Source: Puia dinghuensis (GTDB taxonomy: Bacteria; Bacteroidota; Bacteroidia; Chitinophagales; Chitinophagaceae). Taken from it: a DNA stretch of 40,095 nucleotides. A program made the position numbers and the translations under genes. Below the pieces are notes generated by a model, which was not told the DNA's origin, searched no databases, and saw only the letters and a program-made list of their open reading frames with translations. The stretch is from NCBI GenBank assembly GCA_026225275.1, contig JAMFSL010000332.1, positions 1 through 40,095 on the forward strand, in the 5' to 3' direction. Position 1 is the stretch's first letter. The number at the start of each line of letters is the position of its first letter. Positions 12,531 through 33,023 of this stretch are shown piece by piece.

Positions 12531-12633
12531 TTGGGCTAATGATGGGCCTTCGGCCAGTGTGCCTGCGGCCCACCGGTATGAGTGTGTAAAATTAAGGTTC
12601 TTAGCTTTTTATAAAAAGTTTTGTTACAATTCG

Positions 12634-12663
12634 TTGGAGAAAATCGAAAATCCCCTATCTTTG
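12634..12663 (+). promoter_or_regulatory. Promoter of tRNA-Asp
   Basis: TTG at 12634-12636, a 19-nt spacer and TATCTTTG at 12656-12663 give a perfect match to the Bacteroidota housekeeping promoter (TTG-N19-TAnnTTTG). Transcription would start near 12670, about 90 nt before the mature tRNA 5' end, leaving a leader for RNase P to remove. Confidence 0.75.
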
Positions 12664-12761
12664 CCATCCCGAAAATTTCGCATCTGTCGCGCCTCAAAAG
12701 CCCGGCAAGCCGCATGGGTCCTGATTTCAAGCCCCGTCGGTCCCCGCGAAATCCGGAGGTT

Positions 12762-12835
12762 GGATTGGTAGTTCAGTTGGTTAGAATGCCGCCCTGTCAC
12801 GGCGGAGGTCGCGGGTTCGAGTCCCGTCCAGTCCG
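12762..12835 (+). tRNA. tRNA-Asp (anticodon GTC)
   Basis: A 74-nt cloverleaf. The acceptor stem GGATTGG/CCAGTCC pairs fully with one G-T. The D arm has AGTTCAGTTGGTT, the anticodon stem is CCGCC/GGCGG around the loop CTGTCAC (anticodon GTC), and the T arm is CGGG-TTCGAGT-CCCG. The discriminator base is G12835 and no CCA is encoded, so CCA addition and 3' trimming by RNase Z are needed. It stands alone, between accA (minus strand) and a serine hydrolase. Confidence 0.96.
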
Positions 12836-12841
12836 CAAAGC

Positions 12842-12867
12842 AAAGGTTCACAGCAATGTGAGCCTTT
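12842..12867 (+). terminator. Terminator hairpin after tRNA-Asp
   Basis: AAAGGTTCACA (12842-12852) and TGTGAGCCTTT (12857-12867) form an 11-bp stem with one G-T pair and a GCAA tetraloop, followed by a T-rich run. It begins 6 nt after the tRNA and closes a one-gene transcription unit. Confidence 0.7.
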
Positions 12868-12953
12868 CTTATTTGTACACAGCCATACAGTCAGATCACC
12901 GAACAAAAGCATACTTTCAAAGCCTGACGAACCATAACGGTAAGCTTAAACTC

Positions 12954-13967
12954 ATGACGCAGCCGGATATAACACAAGACTACATAGTTGCCCTTAAAGA
13001 TTTCCCCGATCAAACCCAATTGTCCATATCCTTCAGCAAACAGGGCAAAACGGAGTATTTCGGACTACTGAAAGGCCAAGGCGGCATCCAAACCTTAGAC
13101 AACGCTGATTTCGCGTTCGAAATCGGATCGATAACCAAAGTCTTTACCGGCAATATTCTGGCGCAATTAGTGCTCGAAGGAAAAGTTGGCATAGATGACC
13201 CTATCCAACCATTTCTTCCTTTTCCGATGCTAGGTAGTCCTCCGATTATCTTAAAGCATTTGGCACAACATACTTCAGGCATCCAACGACTTCCGCACAA
13301 CTTCTACGAACAGCCGAACTATCAGGAGGAGAATCCCTATGCCTGCTGTCGGGAAGAACATTTTGCTCACTATTTTCCAACCCTCCTCAAATTGGACAAT
13401 GTTCCGGGAGAAAAGTTTCAATATTCCAACCTGGGCATGAGCCTCTTAAGCTATATCATCTCCCGAATTGAAGGAAAACCGTTTCCTGCCATTGTCTCGG
13501 AAAGAGTCTTCAAACAGGTGGGCATGAGCCAGTCCTCCTATGACCGCAACATCCTCAACACCCCCCTTGTTCGGGGCATCGATAAGGACGGGAAATTCTG
13601 CGCACATTGGGATGCGGGCATCTACGAGGGTGCGCTTGGCATCATCTCGACCGCTAAGGATCTTATGACATTTGCGCTCTGGCAACTCGACCGCTCTTCG
13701 GCTGCTTGCCAGTACCAGGCAAACGAAAACTTTGCATCGGATGCAAATGTCAAAAGTTTGTTGGGATGGATGGAGAACATATTTATCCCTAAGGACAAGC
13801 AGATTCGCATTAGAAGCCTTAACGGAGGTACCGGTGGCTTTGGCGCTTCCCTGATGATAAATCCGGACAGCGATTTCGCACTTGTTGTCCTGTCGAACTG
13901 CTATCCCTATCATTACCTGGAGAAAATAGTTCCGGTGAACAAGCAGGTTATGTTGGCGCATTCGTAA
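12954..13967 (+). CDS. Beta-lactamase/class C-type serine hydrolase
   Basis: About 337 residues in the penicillin-binding/class C beta-lactamase fold. The nucleophile motif SxxK is SITK (Ser59, Lys62, in FEIGSITKVFTG). The second motif YxN is YSN (Tyr157, in FQYSNLGMSLLSYII). The third, K/H-T-G-like, is probably GGTGGFGASL near the C-terminus. HLAQHTSGI and EGALGIISTAKDLM are typical of this family. No signal peptide is visible, so a cytoplasmic esterase or peptidase role is likelier than antibiotic resistance. The frame is open back through the tRNA, but the ATG at 12954 is the first plausible start downstream of that unit. The region upstream shows no clear promoter. Confidence 0.85.
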   Translation: MTQPDITQDYIVALKDFPDQTQLSISFSKQGKTEYFGLLKGQGGIQTLDNADFAFEIGSITKVFTGNILAQLVLEGKVGIDDPIQPFLPFPMLGSPPIILKHLAQHTSGIQRLPHNFYEQPNYQEENPYACCREEHFAHYFPTLLKLDNVPGEKFQYSNLGMSLLSYIISRIEGKPFPAIVSERVFKQVGMSQSSYDRNILNTPLVRGIDKDGKFCAHWDAGIYEGALGIISTAKDLMTFALWQLDRSSAACQYQANENFASDANVKSLLGWMENIFIPKDKQIRIRSLNGGTGGFGASLMINPDSDFALVVLSNCYPYHYLEKIVPVNKQVMLAHS

Positions 13968-21257: not shown

Positions 21258-21602
21258 CTATTTCTGTTCTGTCATTTCTATCGCCATGGCAATAGCATTA
21301 TAGGCGTTTACAACACCACCGCTTACCGATAAACTGCTGAATGGAACCTTTACCGTGGAGCCAGGCCTGTTCACCATTATCTCCGGCCGAAAACTCGACC
21401 TCAGAAGAATATCTTTTACCTGAGCGGCGGAAAGAGCCGGGAAATAAGAAAACAATAGAGCGGCAATGCCCGATACAACAGGGGCAGACATACTGGACCC
21501 TGACTTATAATCATAGCCATTTCCCGGCACGGTTGAAAAAATATCACTGCCCGGCGCGAAAAGATCCACATTTCTTTTCCCATAGTCCGAATAGGGATGA
21601 GC
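21258..21602 (-). pseudogene. C-terminal relic of a subtilase (peptidase S8)
   Basis: Reads AHPYSDYGKRNVDLFAPG, a typical subtilase stretch (S-N/D-Y-G-x-x-VD-x-FAPG), then YDYKSGSSMSAPVVSGIAAL with the catalytic Ser motif (usual GTSMAAP; here GSSMSAP), then ALSAAQVKDILLRSS and a complete C-terminus. The catalytic Asp and His domains and any signal peptide are missing. The frame continues directly from the DUF3570 stop codon (21630-21632) with about 9 unrelated residues in between, so the front of the gene was removed up to that stop. Not expected to be active. Confidence 0.8.
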
Positions 21603-21629: not shown

Positions 21630-22910
21630 TCACCTAAACTTCAAATCCAGCGAAATCACATTCGACATCAGGTCCGTCGTCTCCGTATAATGCCCGTACC
21701 GGATCTCCAGCGAGTTAAAATGCTTGTCAAATATACCTTTGGGCGGCGCCAATCTCACCCCCACCCCGAAAAGGCTGGCCGAAAATGCCGACAACGCATA
21801 GTTGCTAGTATAATAAGTATCGCTCGTCTGATGCTTCTCAAAAGGAGCAAAGTAGTTGGCAGCAGTCTGCACATAATACCGGTAAAAAGGCGAGACCGAA
21901 AAGAACGGGGTGATCTTAACCGGCACCTCAAGGCTGGCTGTCTGGGAGCGGACACCCCAATTATCGATATAAAAACGGTAATACCCTTTCAGGATAACGT
22001 TATCGCCCAGGAAGTAGTTCAACCGAAATCCCAGCGGGAATTTAAACCGCTGAGACGGGAGTTTCTCGATGGTATCCTGACCATTCGAAAAATATACCCT
22101 GTGGAACGGCAGGCCCAGGTACCCGTGCTGTTCGACCAGGTCAAACTCTACACTGCCCTGCAAACGGGGGTTGAAAATTTGAGAATAGGAAAAGGACGCA
22201 GTATAGGTGTCCCTGGGGCTGGAGGGCACGTTCTTTTTGTCGCGTCGGCTGGTACCCCCCGGCGGTATAGCCTCGGTCTGCCCATTAAAGCCCGTGATAT
22301 AAATCGTCGAATCCGTATTGTTCGTGATCAGGCCTTTCACGAATTCAGAAGGATAGATCAGTTTCACCTCGTCAAAATAAGTTGCCAGCTTTGCGCTGAA
22401 TTCCCCATTCTTATCCCTGGTCTTTTTAGAAAAGCCCGCATCCAGGCCGATAGATCGATAATTGTATTCCGTAGAATAGATGGCCCCCAACTCATAGCCG
22501 GTGCCTTTGAAGGCATTTTCATGAGCCCAGTTAAGGGATGGGTAGATGCGGTTGCCAGTCTTTTTGGAAGCGCCGGTCTTGGAAACCCAGGCTTGGGAGG
22601 CAGCCGTGTGAGCATCGAAGCCTATGCCGGCCGTTAGGGTGTTCTTTCCCTGGTGCTTGTCCCAGCCCACGAACCTTATTTCTACGCCGTTAGCCAGGTC
22701 GGTGACATTAGCATCTCCCATAGGGCCTGTTTGTCCGCCGGACACGGCAGATTTGTTCGCGGTCTGGCTATAATAGCTGGAGACAATTTCGACTTCATCT
22801 AGCTTTAAAGCACGGGGTTTGTATACACCCGTATCTTTAGGTGTTCCTTGCGAAAATGCATGCAGAACAATCAAACACATCCCTGTTACTGTAAGACAAA
22901 CTCTTCTCAT
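21630..22910 (-). CDS. DUF3570 outer-membrane barrel protein, copy 1
   Basis: 426 residues. The signal peptide MRRVCLTVTGMCLIVLHAFSQG is followed by an amphipathic-strand-rich domain ending LDLKFR, consistent with an outer-membrane beta-barrel with an aromatic-rich end. DUF3570 proteins are found next to DUF4266 lipoproteins and often apbE or thioredoxin genes. It is the third gene of a minus-strand set: thioredoxin-like, DUF4266, DUF3570 (26 bp after DUF4266). The second copy at 28733-30043 shares long blocks, for example KITPFFSVSPFYRYY versus KITPFLSVSPFYRYY and the whole C-terminus SNVISLDLKFR. The function is unknown. Confidence 0.85.
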   Translation of the reverse strand: MRRVCLTVTGMCLIVLHAFSQGTPKDTGVYKPRALKLDEVEIVSSYYSQTANKSAVSGGQTGPMGDANVTDLANGVEIRFVGWDKHQGKNTLTAGIGFDAHTAASQAWVSKTGASKKTGNRIYPSLNWAHENAFKGTGYELGAIYSTEYNYRSIGLDAGFSKKTRDKNGEFSAKLATYFDEVKLIYPSEFVKGLITNNTDSTIYITGFNGQTEAIPPGGTSRRDKKNVPSSPRDTYTASFSYSQIFNPRLQGSVEFDLVEQHGYLGLPFHRVYFSNGQDTIEKLPSQRFKFPLGFRLNYFLGDNVILKGYYRFYIDNWGVRSQTASLEVPVKITPFFSVSPFYRYYVQTAANYFAPFEKHQTSDTYYTSNYALSAFSASLFGVGVRLAPPKGIFDKHFNSLEIRYGHYTETTDLMSNVISLDLKFR

Positions 22911-22936: not shown

Positions 22937-23161
22937 CTAATTACAACCACAGCCCCCACCAGTCTTGCCGCCGTTAGCGCCGGAAGAACCTTCGCGGTAG
23001 GACTCCATATTGATCTCTTCCTTTTCCACTTTCCGGTTACTAAGGGTCATTTCGGAATCATTTAACCGGTTTTTCTGATACTCCTTGACCGGCTGACAGG
23101 AAGTTAGCAAAACCGTAACCGTTACTGCCGATAGGCATACGCAAAGAACTTTTGAGTACAT
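22937..23161 (-). CDS. DUF4266 small lipoprotein, copy 1 (C-terminal GGGCGCN)
   Basis: 74 residues with a lipoprotein signal (lipobox LTSC, Cys22) and a 53-residue mature part: QPVKEYQKNRLNDSEMTLS, then KVEKEEINMESYREGS and the Gly-rich tail GGKTGGGCGCN ending at the C-terminus. I start at 23161, which gives exactly the length of copy 2; the longer frame to 23185 adds eight residues before the signal. Compared with copy 2, 52 of 53 mature residues are identical although about 24 codons differ silently. The two terminal Cys and Gly run suggest a metal- or thiol-active tail. It lies 26 bp before the DUF3570 gene. Confidence 0.88.
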   Translation of the reverse strand: MYSKVLCVCLSAVTVTVLLTSCQPVKEYQKNRLNDSEMTLSNRKVEKEEINMESYREGSSGANGGKTGGGCGCN

Positions 23162-23223
23162 TTTAAGATTTTTAATTGAATCCACTATTCAGTGCATTAT
23201 ATGTTTTTTCGAATTCACAACCT

Positions 23224-23664
23224 TTAATTATCCGCCGCGATCACCTGTTCCACCTCTGACACGAAGACTTCCGGTTTAACGCCCGGATTGCCATCCCACG
23301 TTTTCAGCACCTTCCCATCTGCATTAAGTAACAGCGTTCGTGGAAATTGACCTTCTTCGTTATATTGGTCCGCCATCGAGTTATTGATCTTCTGTTGTGA
23401 AGGAGACAACTGGTCCTTCTTCTTCCTGGGAAAATCGGCATTCACCAGGACCAGGGCTGTATCAGCCATTTTCAAAAAGATTGAGTCGTCCAGGATTTCC
23501 TTTCGCAGCATAATACAAGGACCACACCAATCCGATCCCGAAAAATTGAGCAGGATATGCCTGTGCTCCTGATGCGCGATGGTCTTGGCCTCATCCAGGC
23601 TGTAATGCCAGCCCGGCGAAGCAGTAAAAAACCATAAAACTGAATAAAAAAGAATTCTCTCCAT
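23224..23664 (-). CDS. Exported thioredoxin-like protein
   Basis: 146 residues with an N-terminal hydrophobic segment (ILFYSVLWFFTASPGW) and a thioredoxin fold carrying the intact redox motif WCGPC (residues about 46-50, in NFSGSDWCGPCIMLRKEI). The FPRTLLLNADGKVLKTWDG segment supplies the conserved cis-Pro region. It probably acts in the periplasm on thiols or disulfides. It is the first gene of the set with DUF4266 and DUF3570; the gap to the DUF4266 start is about 62 bp. In related genomes an apbE gene often belongs to this set, but none is here. Confidence 0.88.
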   Translation of the reverse strand: MERILFYSVLWFFTASPGWHYSLDEAKTIAHQEHRHILLNFSGSDWCGPCIMLRKEILDDSIFLKMADTALVLVNADFPRKKKDQLSPSQQKINNSMADQYNEEGQFPRTLLLNADGKVLKTWDGNPGVKPEVFVSEVEQVIAADN

Positions 23665-23765
23665 ATGTTATAAAAATTACGTTACCTCTTAAGGCTCCTT
23701 TTTGCGGCTTTATTGTTCATACATCAGTTATACATCTGTTAAACCTCTCCGGAGAACCACCCCGG

Positions 23766-24449
23766 TTAACTGACGGCCTTTGCCAACAGGTAGGCCGCTG
23801 CAGCGGCGATGATACCCGTCATGGCTACCTTAACTGTTCCTTTCACCAATGGCTGTCCGGTCACCCTGCTTTTGAAATAGCCAAAGAAAATCAGCGCAAT
23901 GATCGTTACCACACAAGAAGCATAAAACCCGTCCTTGCTGTTCTTGAAGATGATATAAGGAAACAAAGGAATAAAGCCGCCCACCAGATAAGATAGCGCA
24001 ATGGTCATAGCGCTCTTCGTAGCCCGATCTTTGGTCGGCTTCTCCAGGTTTAATTCGAGCTTCATCATAAAGTCCGCCCAACGCACTTTGTCCTTACTTA
24101 TCTGCAGCGCCACCTCTTTGCTGAGCGATGCATCCACTCCCAATTCCACCAAAATATCGTTTACTTCCTGCAATTCGGTGTCCGGCACTGTTTCGATTTC
24201 ACTGAATTCGCGTTTTAGTTCGTTCTCATAGTGCTCGACTTCCGATTCCCCGGCCAGGTAGCCCCCCAGACCCATCGAGATGCAGCCCGCCGCAATTTCG
24301 GACAAGCCGGACACAATAATGAGGTGATTGGTATTCAGTACGCCGCTTAGACCGGCCGTCAGCGCAAAAGGAACCGTCAAACCGTCCGACATTCCGATAA
24401 TAATATCTTTAACCAAATCGGAGTTGCTATTGTGCGGCTCATTTTTCAT
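23766..24449 (-). CDS. VIT/CCC1-family iron or manganese transporter
   Basis: About 227 residues. The N-terminal half has DIIIGMSDGLTVPFALTAGLSG, the first membrane helix and VIT1 signature, followed by IAAGCISMGLGGYLAGESE. An acidic, charged cytoplasmic region with several Glu (EHYENELKREFSEIETVPD) resembles the metal-binding domain of plant VIT1. The C-terminal half has AIALSYLVGGFIPLFPY-like helices (TIALSYLVGGFIPLFPY). Start taken at 24449; the in-frame ATG at 24488 overlaps the upstream gene by 17 bp and adds a non-family tail. It lies 22 bp after the BamA/D15-like gene and probably shares its transcript. Expected to move Fe2+ or Mn2+ out of the cytoplasm. Confidence 0.9.
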   Translation of the reverse strand: MKNEPHNSNSDLVKDIIIGMSDGLTVPFALTAGLSGVLNTNHLIIVSGLSEIAAGCISMGLGGYLAGESEVEHYENELKREFSEIETVPDTELQEVNDILVELGVDASLSKEVALQISKDKVRWADFMMKLELNLEKPTKDRATKSAMTIALSYLVGGFIPLFPYIIFKNSKDGFYASCVVTIIALIFFGYFKSRVTGQPLVKGTVKVAMTGIIAAAAAYLLAKAVS

Positions 24450-24471
24450 ACTGAATTTGCTTTTACTAAAA

Positions 24472-25692
24472 CTAAAATGCCTCTCCAAGGTTCAGGTAAA
24501 TGGCAGAATAGTTTCTACTGATCCCACAATCAAGGGCCAGGTTTGTCCCGGAAGCCTTATTGATCTTGATCCGTAAGCCACCGCCGGCTGCCGAATGCAG
24601 GTAGACATACCGGTGCGTTACAGGCTCCGATACGCTATTCACATTAGCAAACAATACGAAGCCAATCAACCCGTTACCGGTAATATCCCGCCGGTATTCA
24701 CCTTCTGCATAAGCAAGCCCCTTACCTCTGAATCGGGCCTGATCGAATCCTCTGCCCGACCGCTGCTGATAAGGGTCCCAGCCGATACTGGGCAGGTCAA
24801 GATATGGTGCATGGCTATTCAGGGCCACCCAGTAATATGTCCAAAAAGCCAGCATATTCTGCTGCACTTTGCTGAAAGCAATATATTTTCGGATGTCGAT
24901 ATATAAAGAATGCCAGTACGCATTGCTGCCCATAAATAAGGGGTTGAAGCGATATGCTATATTACCGTAAAATCCTGGAAAGGGGTTCAGGGAATTTTTC
25001 CGTGAATCATATAACAAATTCACCGAGATGCCAGAAGACAGCGAAGATCCGCCGGCAGTCCCGAAATGATAGGTCGTGAATCGTTGCAATTCCGTCGCAT
25101 GTAACTGTGTCTCGATATCGAAATGCCCATCGAAGAGATAGCCGAAGCCGGCAAACAAATAGGGCTTTATCCGACGCAGGAAGGTCTCGTAAAACCGCAC
25201 ATATTTGTCATAGACCATCAGGCTGTTCTTTTTATCCGGATTGCCGCCCAACCCCCAGGTATATTGCGGGTAGTATAAGAACCTGATGTCGCCCAGCACG
25301 GCCCATTTATTGTCTGTCAGCCAAAGGTTCGATCGTAAAGTGTAGCCAATGCGTCCTTTGAAGGTAATATAAGGAGAGAAAGTAACGGTTGACAGAAAAG
25401 TGCGAGCCCGATCGCCGAGATAAAATGCTGCCGTCGTAGAGGTGACAAAGGCATTGGAGGGAGAGGTTGTTTGATCCCCGCCAGGGACAAAAGAAAAATA
25501 TATACTTCTCCCCATGACCCTGACAGGTCGCTTAGTTGAATAATGAACGATAGTCTTGGCCATGTCATTCAGGTCGGGCTGCTGAAAAATAGATTTCCCC
25601 CCGGGATTGATTTGACCTTTCGCCACAATGGATAAAGAGAACATGCTAACAGCTAATATACTTATTCTAATATTTGAATGGGAATATTTCAA
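24472..25692 (-). CDS. BamA/D15-type outer-membrane barrel protein
   Basis: 406 residues. Signal peptide (ISILAVSMFSLSIVAKGQ) then a beta-barrel with the Omp85/D15 surface-antigen pattern: SGISVNLLYDSRKNSLNPFPG, GRGFDQARFRGKGLAYAEGEYR and GGGLRIKINKASGTNLALDCG. No POTRA repeats are visible, so it is a short barrel rather than BamA itself. The next gene on the same strand is the VIT-family transporter. The divergent region upstream contains the first ECF-type promoter (25764-25789, for the sigma gene). Confidence 0.8.
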   Translation of the reverse strand: MKYSHSNIRISILAVSMFSLSIVAKGQINPGGKSIFQQPDLNDMAKTIVHYSTKRPVRVMGRSIYFSFVPGGDQTTSPSNAFVTSTTAAFYLGDRARTFLSTVTFSPYITFKGRIGYTLRSNLWLTDNKWAVLGDIRFLYYPQYTWGLGGNPDKKNSLMVYDKYVRFYETFLRRIKPYLFAGFGYLFDGHFDIETQLHATELQRFTTYHFGTAGGSSLSSGISVNLLYDSRKNSLNPFPGFYGNIAYRFNPLFMGSNAYWHSLYIDIRKYIAFSKVQQNMLAFWTYYWVALNSHAPYLDLPSIGWDPYQQRSGRGFDQARFRGKGLAYAEGEYRRDITGNGLIGFVLFANVNSVSEPVTHRYVYLHSAAGGGLRIKINKASGTNLALDCGISRNYSAIYLNLGEAF

Positions 25693-25763
25693 GCCATTTG
25701 ATCAACCAATTTATAACAGGTTCGTCGATAATTATCCATTTATAAAATAAAGTTTGCGCACCC

Positions 25764-25789
25764 AACCATTTTGGAAAAAATGGCATCTA
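25764..25789 (+). promoter_or_regulatory. ECF-type promoter copy 1 (AACC-N16-CATCTA)
   Basis: AACC at 25764-25767 and CATCTA at 25784-25789 with a 16-bp spacer; the left part is preceded by CCC. It lies about 180 bp before the likely sigma ATG at 25966 and on its strand. Confidence 0.6.
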
Positions 25790-25940
25790 CTTTCATTTAT
25801 CGAAAGTTAATACGGGAGCTAGGCCTTGTCGCTGATACAGGCGCTCAAACGAATCCACATGCGTTGTGTCATAAAAATAAACGATATTTATTGCAGGGTG
25901 TCCAACGCGCATTTATTTATCAACTATATTTTTTTGGCCC

Positions 25941-25966
25941 AACCATTTCAATTTTTTTTGCATCTA
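25941..25966 (+). promoter_or_regulatory. ECF-type promoter copy 2 (AACC-N16-CATCTA)
   Basis: AACC at 25941-25944 and CATCTA at 25961-25966 with the same 16-bp spacer. The last base of the -10 box is the A of the sigma ATG, so a transcript starting here would begin inside the reading frame. It may be a duplicated promoter or support a later start. Confidence 0.55.
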
Positions 25967-26535
25967 TGTTTTCTAATAGGAGAAATATTCCGGAACCTGA
26001 ATTACATAAACTCATCAAAGGTTGCCTGGCGGGAGAAAGATCATGCCAAAAGGCGATGTACGAGAGGTATGCTCCTATAATGCTGGGACTTTGCTTACGG
26101 TACTGCAAGAGTCAGGAAGAAGCAGAAGAAGTGTTACAGGATGGTTTTTTACAGATGTACAAACACATAGGGCAATATAAACACACGGGCACATTCGACG
26201 GGTGGCTGCGAAAGATCATGATCAATTGCGCATTGATGAGATACCGGGGGAAAATAGACATCCACCGCGTGATTTCCCTGTCAGAAGATCAATTTGTTTT
26301 GACAGCTGAGGATGATTTCATCGGCCGTCTCGGCGAAAAAGAATTGATCCGGCTGATTCAACAGTTGTCTCCTGCCTATAGGATGGTATTTAACCTCTAT
26401 GTTTTTGAAGGGTTAAAGCATCGGGAAATTGCAGTATTGCTGAACATCACAGAAGGCACATCCAAATCTAATCTTTCAGACGCGAGAACCATTTTAAAGA
26501 AAGCCCTGACACCAAGTATGAAAGTTGCGAAATAG
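25966..26535 (+). CDS. ECF-type RNA polymerase sigma factor
   Basis: About 189 residues, the ordinary ECF length. Region 2 is ERYAPIMLGLCLRYCKSQEEAEEVLQDGFLQMY and then GTFDGWLRKIMINCALMRYR; region 4 is LSPAYRMVFNLYVFEGLKHREIAVLLNITEGTSKSNLSDARTILKK. I start at 25966 (MFSNRRNIPEPEL). The open frame upstream to 25771 is not sigma-like and runs across both promoter copies. It is followed 6 bp later by a trans-envelope protein that probably serves as its anti-sigma or sensor. Two AACC-N16-CATCTA promoter copies before it and one after the locus suggest autoregulation. Confidence 0.9.
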   Translation: MFSNRRNIPEPELHKLIKGCLAGERSCQKAMYERYAPIMLGLCLRYCKSQEEAEEVLQDGFLQMYKHIGQYKHTGTFDGWLRKIMINCALMRYRGKIDIHRVISLSEDQFVLTAEDDFIGRLGEKELIRLIQQLSPAYRMVFNLYVFEGLKHREIAVLLNITEGTSKSNLSDARTILKKALTPSMKVAK

Positions 26536-26541
26536 AAAAGC

Positions 26542-27984
26542 ATGGACAGAAATCAACAAGATAACGTAGATAAATTTTTCAAAGACTCTCTGCAATCTTT
26601 TAAGGATAAACCTGATAGAGAAGTGTGGGAAAATATTGAGCATCAGTTGGAGATGCAAAAGAAGAAATCTTATTTATTTAAATTGCGGACACCAGCTTTA
26701 GCAATGACCAGTCTGGTGTTGCTTTTTGCACTGGGCGTATGGATGTATTGGCTTAGTCCCGGGCCCCGGGTCCGACCCGATCGGGCAGGTCTAAAGGCGG
26801 ACCAAAGGGCTAATGGCATGAATGGTCAGGAGGAAGGCACGGTGACGGCGCCAAAAGCGGACGGAACGATCAGGCCTCGAGAAGTAGGTGGGGACACACG
26901 GCCAGCAGCTGCAAGTGCAGTGTTGAATGGCCTCGCCAAAAGGCAAATGGGTACACGACCGCCCGGGCAGGCAGAGGCGGCAGTGGGGGAACAAACTGAG
27001 AAACCAACGATAGAGCAAGTCCGGAAAGGGGCGATGGCGGAGATGGAAAAGCCTGCGGTCCTATCGCGCGGACAACAGGTTGATGCGGCGGATTTTCAGG
27101 CAGAGCAAGGAAAACAGTCTATAACAGGACGGGAAGGTTTGACAAAACGCTTCCCGGAGCCTGTTAGGCTCGCACCGATACCCGCGGCAGCTTCTACGGC
27201 AGGAACAGATACGTATTTACTCCTGGCTCATCAAATCAATAATTTCAGGAAATCGTCCGTGGTCCATCTGCCAGGACGGAAGAATCGCTGGTCGGTCACC
27301 GGCTATTTTGCGCAGGAATTGGCGGGCTATAATCTGGCCGATCATGATTCCACTGCACCCAATGGAAGGGAGGTCGACAAAAAAGAGACGGCTGTATTTT
27401 CCGCTTCGGTGGGCATGTTGGTAGGTTACCACCTGAAGAAAAGATGGCTCCTGCAGTCGGGTCTCATTTATTCCTGGTCCAACAGCATCAGCGACCCTAC
27501 AGTTGCCTATGCAGTGACGGGCAATAATGGCTCGACCAAATATCAGTTTAATACCCCCGCCGGCTATGGATTTCTCCCCTCCTCTGTAGCGACCGGCGAT
27601 AGCGTACAGACGGATAAATCCTCGAGCAGACTGCATTACCTCTCTATTCCGATCATCGCCTCCTATATTTTTAAAACCAAAGAATTCACCTTTCTGGCCG
27701 GGGCCGGCGTCATCGGCAATATCCTGACCAGTGCAAAAGTTGCTACCACCGTCGAGGGCAGCTCCGGTCAGCAGCCCGAATCGATTGTCAGGCTCTATGG
27801 CCTTCGAACAATCAATTACGGTCTGATCTTTAAGGCAGAAATGCAATATGCTTTTCAATCGAATTGGTCGCTGAATCTGATGGTCACTTCCAAAAATGCA
27901 CTGACGTCGATTAATACGAATGGAAGATATCTTACTTATCCGTATTATTTAGGCCTGGGGCTGGGTATAACCCATTCTTTTTAG
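26542..27984 (+). CDS. Trans-envelope putative anti-sigma protein with C-terminal barrel
   Basis: 480 residues in three parts. A short cytoplasmic N-terminus (KFFKDSLQSFKDKPDREVWENIEHQLE), a single inner-membrane segment near 53-70 (ALAMTSLVLLFALGVWMYWL), then a long Pro/Gly/Glu/Gln-rich linker (about 75-230, low in hydrophobic residues), and a PorT-like outer-membrane barrel at the C-terminus (VTGYFAQELAGYN, SASVGMLVGYHLKKRWLLQSGLIYSW, YLGLGLGITHSF). The layout suggests a protein bridging inner and outer membrane that senses the envelope and controls the sigma factor 6 bp upstream. The anti-sigma role is inferred from position and the short cytoplasmic part. Confidence 0.7.
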   Translation: MDRNQQDNVDKFFKDSLQSFKDKPDREVWENIEHQLEMQKKKSYLFKLRTPALAMTSLVLLFALGVWMYWLSPGPRVRPDRAGLKADQRANGMNGQEEGTVTAPKADGTIRPREVGGDTRPAAASAVLNGLAKRQMGTRPPGQAEAAVGEQTEKPTIEQVRKGAMAEMEKPAVLSRGQQVDAADFQAEQGKQSITGREGLTKRFPEPVRLAPIPAAASTAGTDTYLLLAHQINNFRKSSVVHLPGRKNRWSVTGYFAQELAGYNLADHDSTAPNGREVDKKETAVFSASVGMLVGYHLKKRWLLQSGLIYSWSNSISDPTVAYAVTGNNGSTKYQFNTPAGYGFLPSSVATGDSVQTDKSSSRLHYLSIPIIASYIFKTKEFTFLAGAGVIGNILTSAKVATTVEGSSGQQPESIVRLYGLRTINYGLIFKAEMQYAFQSNWSLNLMVTSKNALTSINTNGRYLTYPYYLGLGLGITHSF

Positions 27985-27990
27985 GCACCC

Positions 27991-28016
27991 AACCATTTCA
28001 TGGATTATTGCATCTA
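27991..28016 (+). promoter_or_regulatory. ECF-type promoter copy 3, before the degenerate response regulator
   Basis: AACC at 27991-27994 and CATCTA at 28011-28016 with a 16-bp spacer, preceded by CACCC as in copy 1. Transcription would start near 28024, about 12 nt before the regulator's ATG at 28036. Confidence 0.6.
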
Positions 28017-28035
28017 ATAAAGCAAACATCATTTC

Positions 28036-28710
28036 ATGAAATTATTGGTTATAGAAGATGAACACAGCCTGCTGGAAAGTATAGTTCAATATTTTAGCCT
28101 TGAATCATTCACCTGCGATACGGCAGATTCGTATGAAGAAGGTTTCTGGAAAATAAAAGTATTTCAATACAACTGCATTATCTTAAACCCCAATATCGCC
28201 CATAGCAATTGGCCGCTGATATTTAAGTTCCTTGGTCAGGAAAAAAGGCGTGATGGCGTAATAATCATTTCCAACCAAGACACTGTCGACGACAAAATCC
28301 ACGGATTAAAACTCGGAGCAGATGACTACCTGGCAAAACCATTTCAACTTACCGAACTCAATGCAAGGGTAAGAGCCCTGATCCGCAGAAAATATGCGCA
28401 GGGAGCCAACGTGTTGCAGGTAGGACCCCTTAAAGCCGATCTGCAATCGAGGACGCTGCAATGCGCAGAAAATCCTGTCCCATTGAGCGACCACGAATAC
28501 AATCTCCTCCTCCTTCTCATGACGAATAAAAATCGGATCGTACCTCTCCAGCACATCGCCGAGCACCTTCACAACGGACCCAGTGAACAGATCCTGTCTT
28601 TTGATTCAGTTTATACCCATGTCAAAAACCTGAAAAAGAAACTCAAACAAAAAGGATGTCAGGAAATAATTCATTCCGTCTATGCCCTAGGATATAAACT
28701 CACCTCATGA
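28036..28710 (+). CDS. OmpR-type response regulator with Asn at the phospho-site (orphan)
   Basis: 224 residues: receiver domain (1-120) plus OmpR/PhoB winged-helix (about 130-224). The receiver keeps the acidic pair (VIEDEH), the conserved Lys (YLAKPF) and the post-beta4 Ser (IIISNQD), but the phospho-acceptor Asp is Asn51: CIILNPNIAHSN stands where the paralog at 32349 reads CIILDINLPGGSG. It therefore cannot be phosphorylated in the usual way. The DNA-binding domain appears intact (SFDSVYTHVKNLKKKLKQKG). Its kinase gene is reduced to the first codons (28707-28732). Expression probably depends on the ECF promoter copy 3. Confidence 0.9.
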   Translation: MKLLVIEDEHSLLESIVQYFSLESFTCDTADSYEEGFWKIKVFQYNCIILNPNIAHSNWPLIFKFLGQEKRRDGVIIISNQDTVDDKIHGLKLGADDYLAKPFQLTELNARVRALIRRKYAQGANVLQVGPLKADLQSRTLQCAENPVPLSDHEYNLLLLLMTNKNRIVPLQHIAEHLHNGPSEQILSFDSVYTHVKNLKKKLKQKGCQEIIHSVYALGYKLTS

Positions 28711-28732
28711 ATAAAAAGCTTCGAACCGGCCT
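28707..28732 (+). pseudogene. Stub of a histidine-kinase gene
   Basis: The ATGA overlap with the response regulator is preserved exactly as in the intact pair at 33020, and the first codons read MNKKL (intact: MNKTL). After about 7-8 codons the frame enters the antisense 3' end of DUF3570 copy 2 (stop at 28733), so the rest of the kinase is gone. Confidence 0.6.
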
Positions 28733-30043
28733 CTATCTGAACTTCAGATCCAGTGAAATTACATTCGATACGAGGTCGGTGGTCTCGGTATAATGCGCAT
28801 ACCTCACTTCGATGGAACTGAAGTGTTTATCAAAGATTCCTTTCGGCGGGGCTAACCTGCCGCCCACGCCGATTAAATTGGCAGAAAAGGACGATAGGGC
28901 ATAGTTGCTGGTATAATATTCATCTGCGGCCGTATGCCGCTGGTACGGTGCAAAATAATTGACAGCCGTCTGGATGTAATACCTGTAAAATGGCGAGACA
29001 GAAAGGAATGGGGTGATCTTTACCGGCACCTCTATGCTGGCGGTATGGGATCTCAGCCCCCAGCTATCAATGTAAAAGCGGTAATAGGTCTTGATGATGA
29101 TATTGTCGCCGAAGAAATAATTGAGCCGGAATCCAACAGGCAATTTAAACCGCTGCGATGGCAGCTTTTCCACTACCGCCTTGGTACTATCAGCAAAATA
29201 TACGCGGTGGAAGGGCAGGCCGAGATAGCCGGATTGGTAGGCCAGGTCAAGCAATATTGCGCCCTGCATACGGGTATTGATTACCTGGGTGAAGGCAAAG
29301 GATGCAGAATAAGAGTCGCGGGACCGGGAGGGGATCGATGTGCTGCCGGCCTCCGTCACACTCGCCTGGCCGTTAACACTATAGGTCAGGGCCTCTGTGC
29401 GGCCGCTCGCTGTGGTGACATAGACGACACTATCCCGGCTGCCGGCTGGAACCTGGATGGAGTCCACAGGTATTAGTTCGGATGGATAGATCATTTTTAT
29501 CTGATCGAAGAATCCGCTGAATTTCGCGCTGAATTCGCCGTTACGACGAGTCTTTTTGGAAAAAGAAGTATTTAACCCGATAGAGTGATAGTAGTTGTGC
29601 TCTGCTGAATAATAGGCACCCAGGCCGAAACTGCTGCCTTTCACGCCATTTTCGATCGTCCAGTCGAGAGTGGGATACACCCGGTTGCCATAATTTCTGG
29701 CTGTTCCGTTGAGATCTACGTAGGCCTGAGAAGCCGCGGTATGATGGTCGAAACCAAGTCCGCCTGTCAACGTATTTTTACGTCCTTTCGGGTCGTAACC
29801 GACAAATTTGACCTCTATTCCATTGGAGAGGTCCGTCACGTTGGCGTTACCAACAGGACCCAACTGACCACCGGAGACAGCAGACTTGTCTGCTGTCTGA
29901 TCATAATAGCTCGAAACGAACTCCACTTCATCCAGCTTCAACGGCCTGGCCTTGTAAGAGCTCGTGTCTTTCGGAGATCCTTGCGAAAAAGCATGCAGGA
30001 TCGCTATACACATCCCGGTCACAGTCAGGCAGATTCTTCTCAT
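28733..30043 (-). CDS. DUF3570 outer-membrane barrel protein, copy 2
   Basis: 436 residues. Signal peptide MRRICLTVTGMCIAILHAFSQG, then the same barrel family as copy 1 at 21630 and an identical C-terminal segment SNVISLDLKFR. Blocks shared with copy 1 include LPFHRVYF, RFKLPVGFRLNYFFGDN (copy 1: RFKFPLGFRLNYFLGDN) and GIFDKHFSS(I/L)E. Loop regions differ more. It follows DUF4266 copy 2 by 31 bp. Its stop lies exactly where the kinase gene on the other strand is interrupted. Confidence 0.85.
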   Translation of the reverse strand: MRRICLTVTGMCIAILHAFSQGSPKDTSSYKARPLKLDEVEFVSSYYDQTADKSAVSGGQLGPVGNANVTDLSNGIEVKFVGYDPKGRKNTLTGGLGFDHHTAASQAYVDLNGTARNYGNRVYPTLDWTIENGVKGSSFGLGAYYSAEHNYYHSIGLNTSFSKKTRRNGEFSAKFSGFFDQIKMIYPSELIPVDSIQVPAGSRDSVVYVTTASGRTEALTYSVNGQASVTEAGSTSIPSRSRDSYSASFAFTQVINTRMQGAILLDLAYQSGYLGLPFHRVYFADSTKAVVEKLPSQRFKLPVGFRLNYFFGDNIIIKTYYRFYIDSWGLRSHTASIEVPVKITPFLSVSPFYRYYIQTAVNYFAPYQRHTAADEYYTSNYALSSFSANLIGVGGRLAPPKGIFDKHFSSIEVRYAHYTETTDLVSNVISLDLKFR

Positions 30044-30074
30044 GTGCTTATTTTATTGAGGCGACTCTATTCGG

Positions 30075-30299
30075 TTAATTACAACCGCACCCGCCACCCG
30101 TCTTCCCCCCGTTGGCGCCGGAAGACCCTTCCCGATAGGATTCCATATTGATTTCTTCCTTTTCAACCTTGCGGTTACTCAGCGTCATTTCGGAATCATT
30201 GATCCGGTTTTTCTGGTATTCTTTCACAGGTTGGCAGGATACCAGGCTGGCGGCGAACGCCACAGCCGAAAGGAGTACTCTACCGATGGGTAACTGCAT
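30075..30299 (-). CDS. DUF4266 small lipoprotein, copy 2 (C-terminal GGGCGCN)
   Basis: 74 residues, same length as copy 1. The signal peptide is unrelated in sequence (MQLPIGRVLLSAVAFAASLVSC), but after the lipobox Cys22 the mature part is the same except for Ile instead of Leu in NR(I/L)NDSEM. It keeps ESYREGSSGANGG and the terminal GGGCGCN. About 24 of 53 mature codons differ silently from copy 1. The upstream neighbour is an apbE relic instead of a thioredoxin gene. Confidence 0.88.
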   Translation of the reverse strand: MQLPIGRVLLSAVAFAASLVSCQPVKEYQKNRINDSEMTLSNRKVEKEEINMESYREGSSGANGGKTGGGCGCN

Positions 30300-30317: not shown

Positions 30318-30627
30318 TCAGGTCAGACGAATGTTCTTTGATGTATAAATGCGGTCTTCGTCATCGATCAAAATGGCCTCGATATCCTTGATCTGGAATG
30401 ATATTCCGGTAATTGATCAGCCGCACCATTTGTTGGGCCGTCGCTGGATCCGGCAGGGATTTCATACCCGGATCAAAATTCCAAAGCCCCTTATCCACCG
30501 ATCCGTAACTAATGTCAAAAGCGCCTTGGGTCAGCCGGGAGATTCTCAAAGAACGGTCGATGATATCGAATGTTTCCTGCGACACCCGCACGGGAGCGAT
30601 ACCAGCCTGCAGGTTGACCTGATTCGT
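30318..30627 (-). pseudogene. apbE: Relic of apbE (FAD:protein FMN transferase)
   Basis: Directly in frame after the cytochrome b stop (30628-30630) the sequence reads TNQVNLQAGIAPVRVSQETF, then RSLRISRLTQGAFDISYGSV and KGLWNFDP: the ApbE middle region (V-x-VS-x-E, S-x-x-TxGAFD, W-x-F). A shift of frame near 30400 leads to IEAILIDDEDRIYTSKNI and a stop at 30318-30320, resembling an ApbE C-terminal end. The signal region and the metal/FAD motif (GGIGKGYA-D) are missing. So both the front and about half the interior have been deleted. Not functional. Confidence 0.65.
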
Positions 30628-31326
30628 TCAATCCTGCCTGTCGCCCTTTCCATGGATCATGCTGGACACCAGCCCTTTATCCGTTCCCAGATCGGCCCTG
30701 ATGACCCCTGCCAAATGGACGAGGATGAAGGCATAAATAAAATATTGCACAAACTGGTGCACATTCGTGATCCCACGATGCCAGTTCCTGAACACCGGTA
30801 CATCTTCAAAGGCAAGCCCCAGGCCGGTTAGTGCCATCGTGCCGATCAGCACATAAAAGAGCACATATGTCCATTTCACCCGAACGTAATGCCGGACGGA
30901 TCTTTTTGTCGCATCGTCTCCCTCACGAAGTTCGGAAGTTTTAAATCCCGCCGCCTTTCTGATCTTCGTCCTCAACTTTTCTTCGCCGGGTTGAGCCAAT
31001 TCTATGATGCCCCTGATCAATAACAACCCGACAAGTCCGTAACCAAGCCAGGTGTGTAACCCCCAAAGCTTATCGCTATAGGCGTGGGCCACTGACCTTG
31101 CCTGGTCTTTGGTAACAGTCACGCCTTTTTCCTGCAGATCCTGTTGTACACCGGCAATATTATCTCTCGTCCGGAATAACGTAGAACCGAAGAGTACGGT
31201 TGTCAAGGAGGCTGTTAAAATGACAAAAAAAGTCCAGTGCCATATCCGGATGGCAAGGGAATGGGGTTCGTTAAAGATAACCGGCGACGCCTGGTTAGTC
31301 AGGGGTATGTTGTGTATCGTGCTCAT
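30628..31326 (-). CDS. Membrane-bound cytochrome b (b561/b6-like)
   Basis: 232 residues with four membrane helices: near 25-50 (IWHWTFFVILTASLTTVLFG), near 90-112 (GLHTWLGYGLVGLLLIRGI), near 150-172 (VKWTYVLFYVLIGTMALTGLG), near 185-215 (VHQFVQYFIYAFILVHLAG). His residues positioned for heme b binding: His in RIWHW, in GLHTW, and in TNVHQF and ILVHLAG. It probably passes electrons between quinol and a periplasmic or extracytoplasmic partner. On the minus strand it lies downstream of an outer-membrane protein gene (16 bp) and just before the apbE relic. Confidence 0.85.
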   Translation of the reverse strand: MSTIHNIPLTNQASPVIFNEPHSLAIRIWHWTFFVILTASLTTVLFGSTLFRTRDNIAGVQQDLQEKGVTVTKDQARSVAHAYSDKLWGLHTWLGYGLVGLLLIRGIIELAQPGEEKLRTKIRKAAGFKTSELREGDDATKRSVRHYVRVKWTYVLFYVLIGTMALTGLGLAFEDVPVFRNWHRGITNVHQFVQYFIYAFILVHLAGVIRADLGTDKGLVSSMIHGKGDRQD

Positions 31327-31342
31327 TTAACGCAAATTATCC

Positions 31343-32158
31343 TTACCAATCCGTTCGCCGCACAACCGAAGCGTTATGCGTCACATGCTTGCCGCCCCCG
31401 AACCGCCTGCCAATGATGACCTTAAAAATGCTCCGGTCAATACTGGGTGTCAGCCCAAAGACATATCCGGCATTGAACTCCCAGCGCGGATCAAAGTCCG
31501 CATCCACCGCAATGACCAATTGGTGCTGCTGTACGCTGATCGGATCAAAATGCTGAATGGGTCCCCATGATCCGTAGTATTCTATGCCCGGCGCCCATAC
31601 CTTCCCAATTTGGTAACTGAACTTAAAGTCCGGCGCAAATATGGCTCCGCGGCCAGCATCAGCGCCTTTGAACGTCAGATCTACAACCGGATTGAGTGCC
31701 AGGTATACCGGTCCAATCTGCTTGTCGATAATCGGCCTGATCTCCAGCGTCCAAATATCCGGATCATATCCGTCTTTCACAAACCCACCCTCGAACGATA
31801 TACTGGCGCCTACCGGCCAATGCCATTCTAAAGGTGCCATGACGCGCGGTCGGATGTGGCTGCCTACATAATTCGTCCGGCCCATATCCCCGAAATCATT
31901 GAAAATATAAAAGCCAGTCTCGAACCATGGTGTCCAGCCATGCGTGATCTCGATGGTCTCCCTGTCCATATGATTGGTTGAGACGACTCCAGCGGAGGCT
32001 GTATTGCCGATAAAACTGTAATTACTGTGCAACTCCACCATCGTCGTATCCTTCCCTACTGTAGGAGAAGCATATACCTGTATTTCATAATTGTCCTGCG
32101 CCTCGCAAAAAAAGGGCACGATGCATCCCAGCAACATGCCGAAAAAAAATATTCTCAT
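31343..32158 (-). CDS. Predicted outer-membrane protein of unknown function
   Basis: 271 residues. Signal peptide MRIFFFGMLLGCIVPFFCEAQ, then strand-rich sequence with alternating aromatic residues (GWTPWFETGFYIFNDFG, GPVYLALNPVVDLTFKG, WEFNAGYVFGLTPSID) as in an 8-12 strand barrel. No domain was recognised. It forms a two-gene transcription unit with the cytochrome b (16 bp gap) and diverges from the two-component pair at 32349. A perfect -7 box lies 20 bp upstream. Confidence 0.75.
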   Translation of the reverse strand: MRIFFFGMLLGCIVPFFCEAQDNYEIQVYASPTVGKDTTMVELHSNYSFIGNTASAGVVSTNHMDRETIEITHGWTPWFETGFYIFNDFGDMGRTNYVGSHIRPRVMAPLEWHWPVGASISFEGGFVKDGYDPDIWTLEIRPIIDKQIGPVYLALNPVVDLTFKGADAGRGAIFAPDFKFSYQIGKVWAPGIEYYGSWGPIQHFDPISVQQHQLVIAVDADFDPRWEFNAGYVFGLTPSIDRSIFKVIIGRRFGGGKHVTHNASVVRRTDW

Positions 32159-32348: not shown

Positions 32349-33023
32349 ATGAAATTACTGGTTATTGAAGATGAGCGCAGCCTGCTGACCAGTATCGTTC
32401 AATACTTCAATCAGGAAAAATTCTTATGCGAAACGGCCGGGTCCTACGAAGAAGGTGTCCGGAAAATAGAGGATTTCCGATACGACTGCATCATCCTGGA
32501 CATCAACCTGCCCGGGGGCAGCGGATTGCAGCTACTTAAACACCTGCGCCTAAACAAAAGCCGCGACGGCGTCATCATCATTTCCGCCCGTGACTCCCTG
32601 GACGACAAAATCGACGGGCTGGACCTCGGCGCCGACGACTACCTGACCAAACCCTTTCACCTCTCGGAACTTAACGCGCGGGTAAGAGCCCTGATCCGCA
32701 GAAAATATGCAGAAGGGGCCAGCGTTCTACAAGTTGGACCCCTGAAGGCCGACCTGCCATCCAGGACTATCATCTACGCAGATCAACCTATACCCTTAAG
32801 CAAGAACGAATACGACCTGCTGCTCTTCCTAATGACCAACAAGAACCGGGTCGTCAGCAGGCAAGCCATCGCAGAGCACATCCACGACGGCCCCTCCGAA
32901 CAAATCCCTTCCTCAGATTTCGTCTACTCCCATATCAAAAACCTGAAAAGGAAACTGAAAGAAAAAGGGTGCCAGGAAATTATTCATACCGTCTATGGCT
33001 TGGGCTATAAACTCTCCACATGA
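32349..33023 (+). CDS. OmpR-type response regulator (intact)
   Basis: 224 residues. The receiver domain has the acidic pair (VIEDER), phospho-acceptor Asp51 (CIILDINLPGGSGL), post-beta4 Ser (IIISARDS) and Lys (YLTKPF). The C-terminal winged helix ends KRKLKEKGCQEIIHTVYGLGYKLS. It is a close paralog of the degenerate copy at 28036 (LNARVRALIRRKYA is shared). Its stop overlaps the kinase start (ATGA), so the two are translationally coupled. The efflux genes 1.3 kb downstream are the likely target. Confidence 0.96.
   Translation: MKLLVIEDERSLLTSIVQYFNQEKFLCETAGSYEEGVRKIEDFRYDCIILDINLPGGSGLQLLKHLRLNKSRDGVIIISARDSLDDKIDGLDLGADDYLTKPFHLSELNARVRALIRRKYAEGASVLQVGPLKADLPSRTIIYADQPIPLSKNEYDLLLFLMTNKNRVVSRQAIAEHIHDGPSEQIPSSDFVYSHIKNLKRKLKEKGCQEIIHTVYGLGYKLST

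Follow-up and report, generated by a model that had tools for sequence, protein, structure and literature searches.

Two small lipoproteins of the family DUF4266 are encoded on the minus strand of a 40,095-nucleotide contig of Puia dinghuensis (JAMFSL010000332.1 of assembly GCA_026225275.1; "the window" denotes this whole stretch). They are old copies whose mature parts have been kept almost identical by purifying selection and, with a probability put at roughly 55%, they are lipid-anchored, intrinsically disordered electron shuttles to a flavin carried by an outer-membrane barrel protein of the family DUF3570. Copy A (22937..23161) and copy B (30075..30299) each encode 74 residues and score 64.0 and 62.6 bits with the Pfam profile PF14086 (DUF4266) at a cut-off of 27; both have a lipobox cysteine, Cys22, with predicted lipidation, and both have C71-G72-C73 (CGC) close to the C-terminus. 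A DUF3570 gene is adjacent to each and ends its cassette on the same strand, D1 (21630..22910) downstream of copy A and D2 (28733..30043) downstream of copy B. Sequence comparison establishes the lipobox, the invariant CGC, the linkage to genes for DUF3570, thioredoxin-like proteins and ApbE, and the selection on the mature part.

Selection on the mature lipoprotein

Aligned by codon, the 53 mature codons (22-74) of copies A and B contain 24 silent differences, spread over the entire mature region, and a single replacement (L33 to I33), as the first-pass annotation of the window had counted. Nei-Gojobori estimates for the mature part are 0.012 replacement (dN) and 2.03 silent (dS) substitutions per site, the proportion of differing silent sites (pS) of 0.70 being near saturation; for signal codons 2-21 the corresponding values are 0.86 and 0.90. 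These values bear out the further statements of the annotation that the copies are old and that the signal peptides, in which almost no selection is visible, differ freely. The D1 and D2 proteins share 278 of 425 residues (dN 0.26, dS 2.6), and, with a dS comparable to that of the lipoproteins, the two gene pairs are of similar age; at the rate of amino-acid change of DUF3570, one replacement or fewer in 53 residues would be expected with P ~5e-9. The window pair consists of old copies under purifying selection and not of products of recent conversion: recent gene conversion is rejected because silent changes approach saturation throughout the mature region. Nor need the codon differences come from sequencing error, since an ortholog from another genome (L035) has the same mature protein as copy B (30075), 53 of 53 residues, at a pS of 0.60.

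The claim that nearly every mature residue has been fixed holds for the sub-lineage formed by the window pair and L035 and does not hold for the family, in which six positions (C22, E57, G69, C71, G72 and C73) are invariant among 85 aligned members (84 proteins non-redundant at 90% plus copy B) and most other mature positions vary. The CGC is present in 163 of 163 unique DUF4266 sequences and is followed by N in 159, G in 3 and AK in 1; the sequences were collected by profile, and tails lacking CGC are thus under-sampled. Pair and column counts are based on the 126 of these sequences whose mature part is 53 residues long; the median pair has 38 of these residues in common, and at pS 0.6-0.8 only 7 of 4091 pairs, which are not independent of one another, share 52 or more. 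A third DUF4266 copy of the same genome (contig C247, 27380-27613) differs from the window copies at a proportion of replacement sites (pN) of 0.10-0.12 in the mature part.

The ratio pN/pS is 0.22 for residues 23-37, 0.29 for residues 38-55 and 0.09 for the tail, residues 56-74, and it is 0.90 for the last 15 signal codons. This set of 31 sequences, all with a mature length of 53, was chosen by locus number from the relatives search and comprises 29 of the genus together with L016 and L024 from other genera of the family. Purifying selection on the mature part is strong. The additional constraint seen in the window pair is confined to its sub-lineage, and one idea for its origin is that a protein that must fit two partners, as may be the case in the genus relative L083 with its two DUF3570 genes, changes more slowly. 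The pair offers a clean example of a short, predicted disordered protein that is nearly frozen while its signal peptide drifts at an almost neutral rate.

Genomic linkage and the DUF3570 partner

Of 395 genomes searched in the phylum, 118 have DUF3570 and 113 have DUF4266; every genome with DUF4266 also has DUF3570, and the five genomes with DUF3570 only belong to one family (f37). A DUF3570 gene lies near 160 of the 163 DUF4266 copies, and the three misses are near contig ends. For the 125 of the 163 copies on contigs of at least 8 kb, profile searches of the same strand within 6 kb find DUF3570 in 125, ApbE in 116 and a thioredoxin-like protein in 110; counts based on clustering, from which genes overlapping the DUF4266 frame by more than 60 bases were excluded, are lower (123, 104 and 99). 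Counts of gene order are lower bounds for the same reason: DUF3570 is downstream of DUF4266 in at least 123 of 125, at a median gap of 27 bases, and the commonest order, thioredoxin, ApbE, DUF4266, DUF3570, occurs in at least 56 of 125. In the well-covered subset of 105 neighbourhoods, with 5 kb on either side, ApbE and thioredoxin are both present in 91 and both missing in 1. The active site of the thioredoxin-like proteins is C-x-P-C in 100 of 101, with CGPC in 79. Genes for DsbD occur in 10 of 125 neighbourhoods and for VIT1 in 9 of 125, the latter count taking the window twice. A single DUF4266 gene stands with two DUF3570 genes at L083, L137, L147 and L173, and L118 has two with four; in L083 both DUF3570 kinds are in one run with the single DUF4266 gene, to which an intact ApbE gene adjoins.

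A test for association between the exact [ST]GA[ST] motif in DUF3570 and a nearby ApbE gene showed none (ApbE near 41 of 51 DUF3570 genes that have the motif and 49 of 54 that lack it; Fisher P 0.17) but was set aside as void, because ApbE had been under-counted (a recount gives 101 of 105, with almost no variation left) and the motif had been defined too narrowly. A DUF4266/DUF3570 cassette also occurs at L155 and L156, from a metagenome-assembled genome (MAG) titled Hungatella (Bacillota), in which contamination is likely; L153, from a Bacteroidota MAG, has almost the same DUF3570 as L155, which is the one of the two contigs that the tree covers.

The AlphaFold2 model of the DUF3570 protein D1 (mean predicted local distance difference test score, pLDDT, 90.2; predicted template-modelling score 0.82) has 16 strands by manual count, the last ending at residue 425/426, and predicts a porin-like outer-membrane barrel; a signal peptide was judged by eye. 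It was folded from an alignment of 104 rows, the window copy and 103 of 131 other non-redundant proteins, with 26 proteins from more distant lineages as well as L155 and L078 left aside; statements of invariance cover the 104. The best PDB matches found by Foldseek are porins of the OprD/Occ, OmpG and AlgE kinds (E ~1e-8 to 1e-6), and sequence searches found no solved relative at E values up to 1. On one side of the barrel the segments between strands are mostly long (18, 14, 2, 46, 23, 4, 27 and 4 residues), while those on the other side are short (4, 4, 5, 2, 3, 8 and 10). Long loops of outer-membrane barrels face outside. With the side of long segments taken as the outside, two putative flavin motifs are placed in the second outward loop.

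The flavin serine of motif 1 is invariant in the 104 rows. Aligned with the two motif positions, D1 carries T-A-A-S105 and T-G-A-S115 and D2 only T-A-A-S (within D-H-H-T-A-A-S), its second motif having become N-G-T-A; neither protein has two [ST]GA[ST] motifs. Motif 2 has been lost in one clade of the genus, which includes D2, and is kept in D1; L102, outside the genus, is scored as a further loss and may only be shifted in length. In the DUF3570 tree, whose 71 rows include a cut duplicate of D2, D1 stands next to the motif-2-loss clade and the genome's own third copy elsewhere, so that D1 and D2 represent an old split within the genus. Cysteine is absent after residue 30 from 131 of 143 DUF3570 proteins, and for this reason the CGC of DUF4266 would be a natural thiol beside the flavin. 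The DUF3570 of Chlorobium luteolum is reported to be flavinylated by its ApbE, and it needed guanidine for extraction from the pellet (PMC8238504, available in part); the latter would be consistent with a barrel protein produced in the cytosol.

A candidate electron relay and its alternatives

Modelled by AlphaFold2, the mature part of DUF4266 has block means of pLDDT falling from 73 to 45, with no strand and no helix of four residues or more in 85 proteins, and is predicted to be disordered. Since the strictly kept tail is disordered alone, folding or threading of the tail on a partner is suggested. In the proposed mechanism the signal peptide would be cleaved and Cys22 lipidated, and DUF4266 would be held at a membrane, probably at the periplasmic face of the outer membrane, with its remaining 52 residues as a flexible arm that has Gly-Cys-Gly-Cys-Asn at its tip. 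The cassette's periplasmic thioredoxin-like protein, itself reduced by DsbD or another inner-membrane donor, would reduce the CGC disulfide, and ApbE would load covalent flavin mononucleotide (FMN) onto the DUF3570 barrel. The arm would then reach into the barrel and give its electrons to FMN, from which they would pass to a cell-surface acceptor, perhaps ferric iron. The strictness of the tail would reflect binding to two partners, with thioredoxin contacting the cysteines and the barrel the stretch from Glu57 to the glycine. From these parts we infer the direction of electron flow, the contact of arm and barrel, their location and the final acceptor; a chain from thioredoxin CxPC to DUF4266 CGC, to FMN on DUF3570 and to an external acceptor would be the simplest one through them. 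Most DUF3570 proteins lack a cysteine pair on the flavin side, and the CGC would therefore act on the flavin directly. A CGC peptide has a potential near -167 mV (PMC3173608 and PMC4316792, both available in part).

The shuttle reading bears on possible haem-independent passage of electrons across the outer membrane. The porin-cytochrome conduits of the MtrCAB kind likewise take electrons through an outer-membrane barrel, but they use a multihaem cytochrome in the barrel and have neither a barrel flavin nor a dithiol arm. A haem-free route in which the CGC tip is threaded from the periplasm into the barrel, the FMN loop (after strand 3, with Ser105) lies at the outward end, and one arm may serve several barrels, is offered tentatively, as a possibility with the odds rather against it. 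A disordered CGC arm supplied by thioredoxin, together with a barrel bearing flavin, makes one testable picture, for which the key residues can be named: in DUF4266, Cys71, Cys73 and Glu57; in D1, Ser105 and Ser115.

A number of observations weigh against the shuttle reading. The template-modelling scores of the Foldseek matches are low, ~0.3-0.4 by query length, and the topology of the predicted barrel and the side on which its flavin would lie are deduced from strand order rather than coordinates. Motif 1 is [ST][SA]AS in 101 of 104 rows and ASAS in 3, not the [ST]GA[ST] that has been demonstrated experimentally, and flavinylation of these DUF3570 proteins at motif 1 is proposed by analogy. 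Of the well-covered neighbourhoods, 14 of 105 lack ApbE, thioredoxin or both, yet the CGC stays; the missing partners may act in trans. The 14 include both window copies (a count in which the broken ApbE of the window is scored as present), copy A having no ApbE, copy B no thioredoxin and a broken ApbE, and the DUF3570 of copy B has lost motif 2. Known flavin-thiol relays use a cysteine pair on the side of the flavoprotein (PMC4019985, available in part). In the literature searched, which included few subscription journals, DUF4266 appears only in PMC8238504, the available part of which holds no experiment on DUF4266.

The near-perfect linkage of the two families and a strictly conserved tail that is predicted to be disordered alone, as expected for folding on a partner, would also fit an arrangement in which DUF4266 is a plug or assembly lipoprotein of DUF3570, for which LptE/LptD is the model; conservation would then reflect packing inside the barrel, and CGC would be a switch or a structural disulfide isomerised by thioredoxin rather than a carrier of electrons. 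The pair of invariant cysteines, spaced by one residue and encoded near CxPC thioredoxins, points instead to redox chemistry, and the loci with one DUF4266 for two DUF3570 genes (two for four at L118) fit a fixed one-to-one complex less well, unless expression differs; a plug is considered unlikely, with something like a fifth of the weight. A metal site is a doubtful explanation of a lower order. The invariance of Glu57, Cys71 and Cys73 could describe a periplasmic ligand of iron or another metal that presents it to the flavin to be reduced or passes it on, and a VIT1 gene stands upstream in cassette A and in the few neighbourhoods counted above, with 25 VIT1-containing clusters counted by Meheust et al. 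2021 in the available part of PMC8238504. VIT1 is nevertheless uncommon beside thioredoxin (110 of 125), and two cysteines one residue apart with one distant glutamate make a poor site alone.

The first-pass annotation had also suggested that the sequence is read by a modifying enzyme, and conservation of the tail for recognition by ApbE or another enzyme has in its favour the presence of ApbE in 116 of 125 neighbourhoods and the resemblance of the tail, E-x-x-S-G-[AG]-x, to the ApbE motif D-x-x-[ST]-G-A-[ST]. The tail of the window copies, E57-G-S-S-G-A-N63, does not match that motif, however: among 126 sequences the position equivalent to the acceptor, where the motif calls for Ser or Thr, is occupied by Asn in 105, by Gly in 20 and by Ser in 1. 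DUF4266 is rejected as an ApbE substrate for this lack of the acceptor residue, the ApbE motif being found in DUF3570, and no other modifying enzyme was recognised in the 30 commonest neighbour clusters, five of which were checked with Pfam; modification of the tail is thus very improbable. The thiol relay that the annotation had named among its possibilities is the best-supported reading.

DUF4266 can no longer be described as lacking an assigned function. In 2021, Meheust et al. (eLife, PMC8238504) placed DUF4266 in clusters with ApbE, DUF3570 and thioredoxin-like proteins and suggested redox cycling of its CXC. In the available part of that paper the same four families stand side by side with a C-terminal CXC and, in some clusters, VIT1, and the window cassettes belong to this kind; they differ in being split and incomplete (A has thioredoxin without ApbE, B a broken ApbE without thioredoxin) and in having TAAS as motif 1 of DUF3570 where the published motif is [ST]GA[ST]. 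The gene set, the flavinylation of a DUF3570 and the suggested redox role were thus published in 2021; new here are the models of the barrel and of the disordered arm, the set of invariant positions, the four loci with one DUF4266 to two DUF3570 genes, and the splitting and partial decay of the window cassettes. The literature search found DUF3570 only in PMC8238504, from whose main text the words "barrel" and "porin" are absent, and found no test of the 2021 redox proposal.

Among known systems described in PMC4019985 (in part), Erv2 and Mia40/Erv1 use a CXC or CPC pair to move electrons between thiol proteins and flavin, the CXC shuttle of Erv2 being C-terminal and the CPC motif of Mia40 passing electrons to a flavoprotein. 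Unlike DUF4266 they are eukaryotic, their shuttle is within the flavoenzyme or feeds a CXXC on the flavin side, and their direction is that of thiol oxidation; Pfam finds no flavin adenine dinucleotide domain of the ERV/ALR kind here, the lipoprotein matching DUF4266 alone and its partner DUF3570 alone. CsgC of curli export is, like DUF4266, a periplasmic CxC redox protein with an outer-membrane protein as its proposed target, but it has a folded Ig-like domain, an internal CxC and no flavin (PMC3173608, in part).

Cassettes and other features of the window

Cassette A runs, on the minus strand, from a gene with a sub-threshold Omp85 match through the VIT1-family transporter (23766..24488) and a thioredoxin-like protein of the Thioredoxin_7 family (23224..23664, site CGPC), whose N-terminus is hydrophobic and resembles a signal peptide, to copy A and D1; a profile search of the neighbourhood finds no ApbE within 6 kb of copy A. 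Cassette B, also on the minus strand, begins with a predicted exported, outer-membrane-like protein (31343..32158) that has a weak barrel match (E 0.019, below the cut-off) and a family found in 10 of 125 neighbourhoods, window included. There follow a membrane protein of the cytochrome b561 / Ni_hydr_CYTB family (30628..31326), an ApbE remnant (30388..30630) that covers model positions 36-115 of 266 (80/266) with one internal TGA, copy B and D2. For copy B, the profile search finds no thioredoxin-like gene on the same strand out to 6 kb, whereas copy A has one beside it. Near the third DUF4266 copy, on contig C247, are a DUF3570 gene, a complete ApbE, a PepSY protein and two ApbE-DUF2271 fusions (L008, 4649-6157 and 11575-13086), which join a flavin transferase to a family reported, in a source available in part, to have flavinylated members; intact ApbE genes on that contig number three in all. 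The genome of the window also encodes a DsbD_TM protein.

Elsewhere in the window, a short open reading frame (ORF) at 21258-21569 is probably a gene remnant, its match to a subtilase domain being confined to the end of the model (positions 204-273 of 288). Two paralogous response regulators of the OmpR type are encoded at 28036-28710 and 32349-33023; at the presumed phosphate-accepting site the former has CIILN and the latter CIILD, and the former, which has no kinase gene directly adjoining, may be a non-phosphorylatable receiver. A tRNA-Asp (gtc) gene at 12762-12836 sits within the N-terminal extension of the ORF at 12621-13967, and the true start of this ORF is therefore probably further in.

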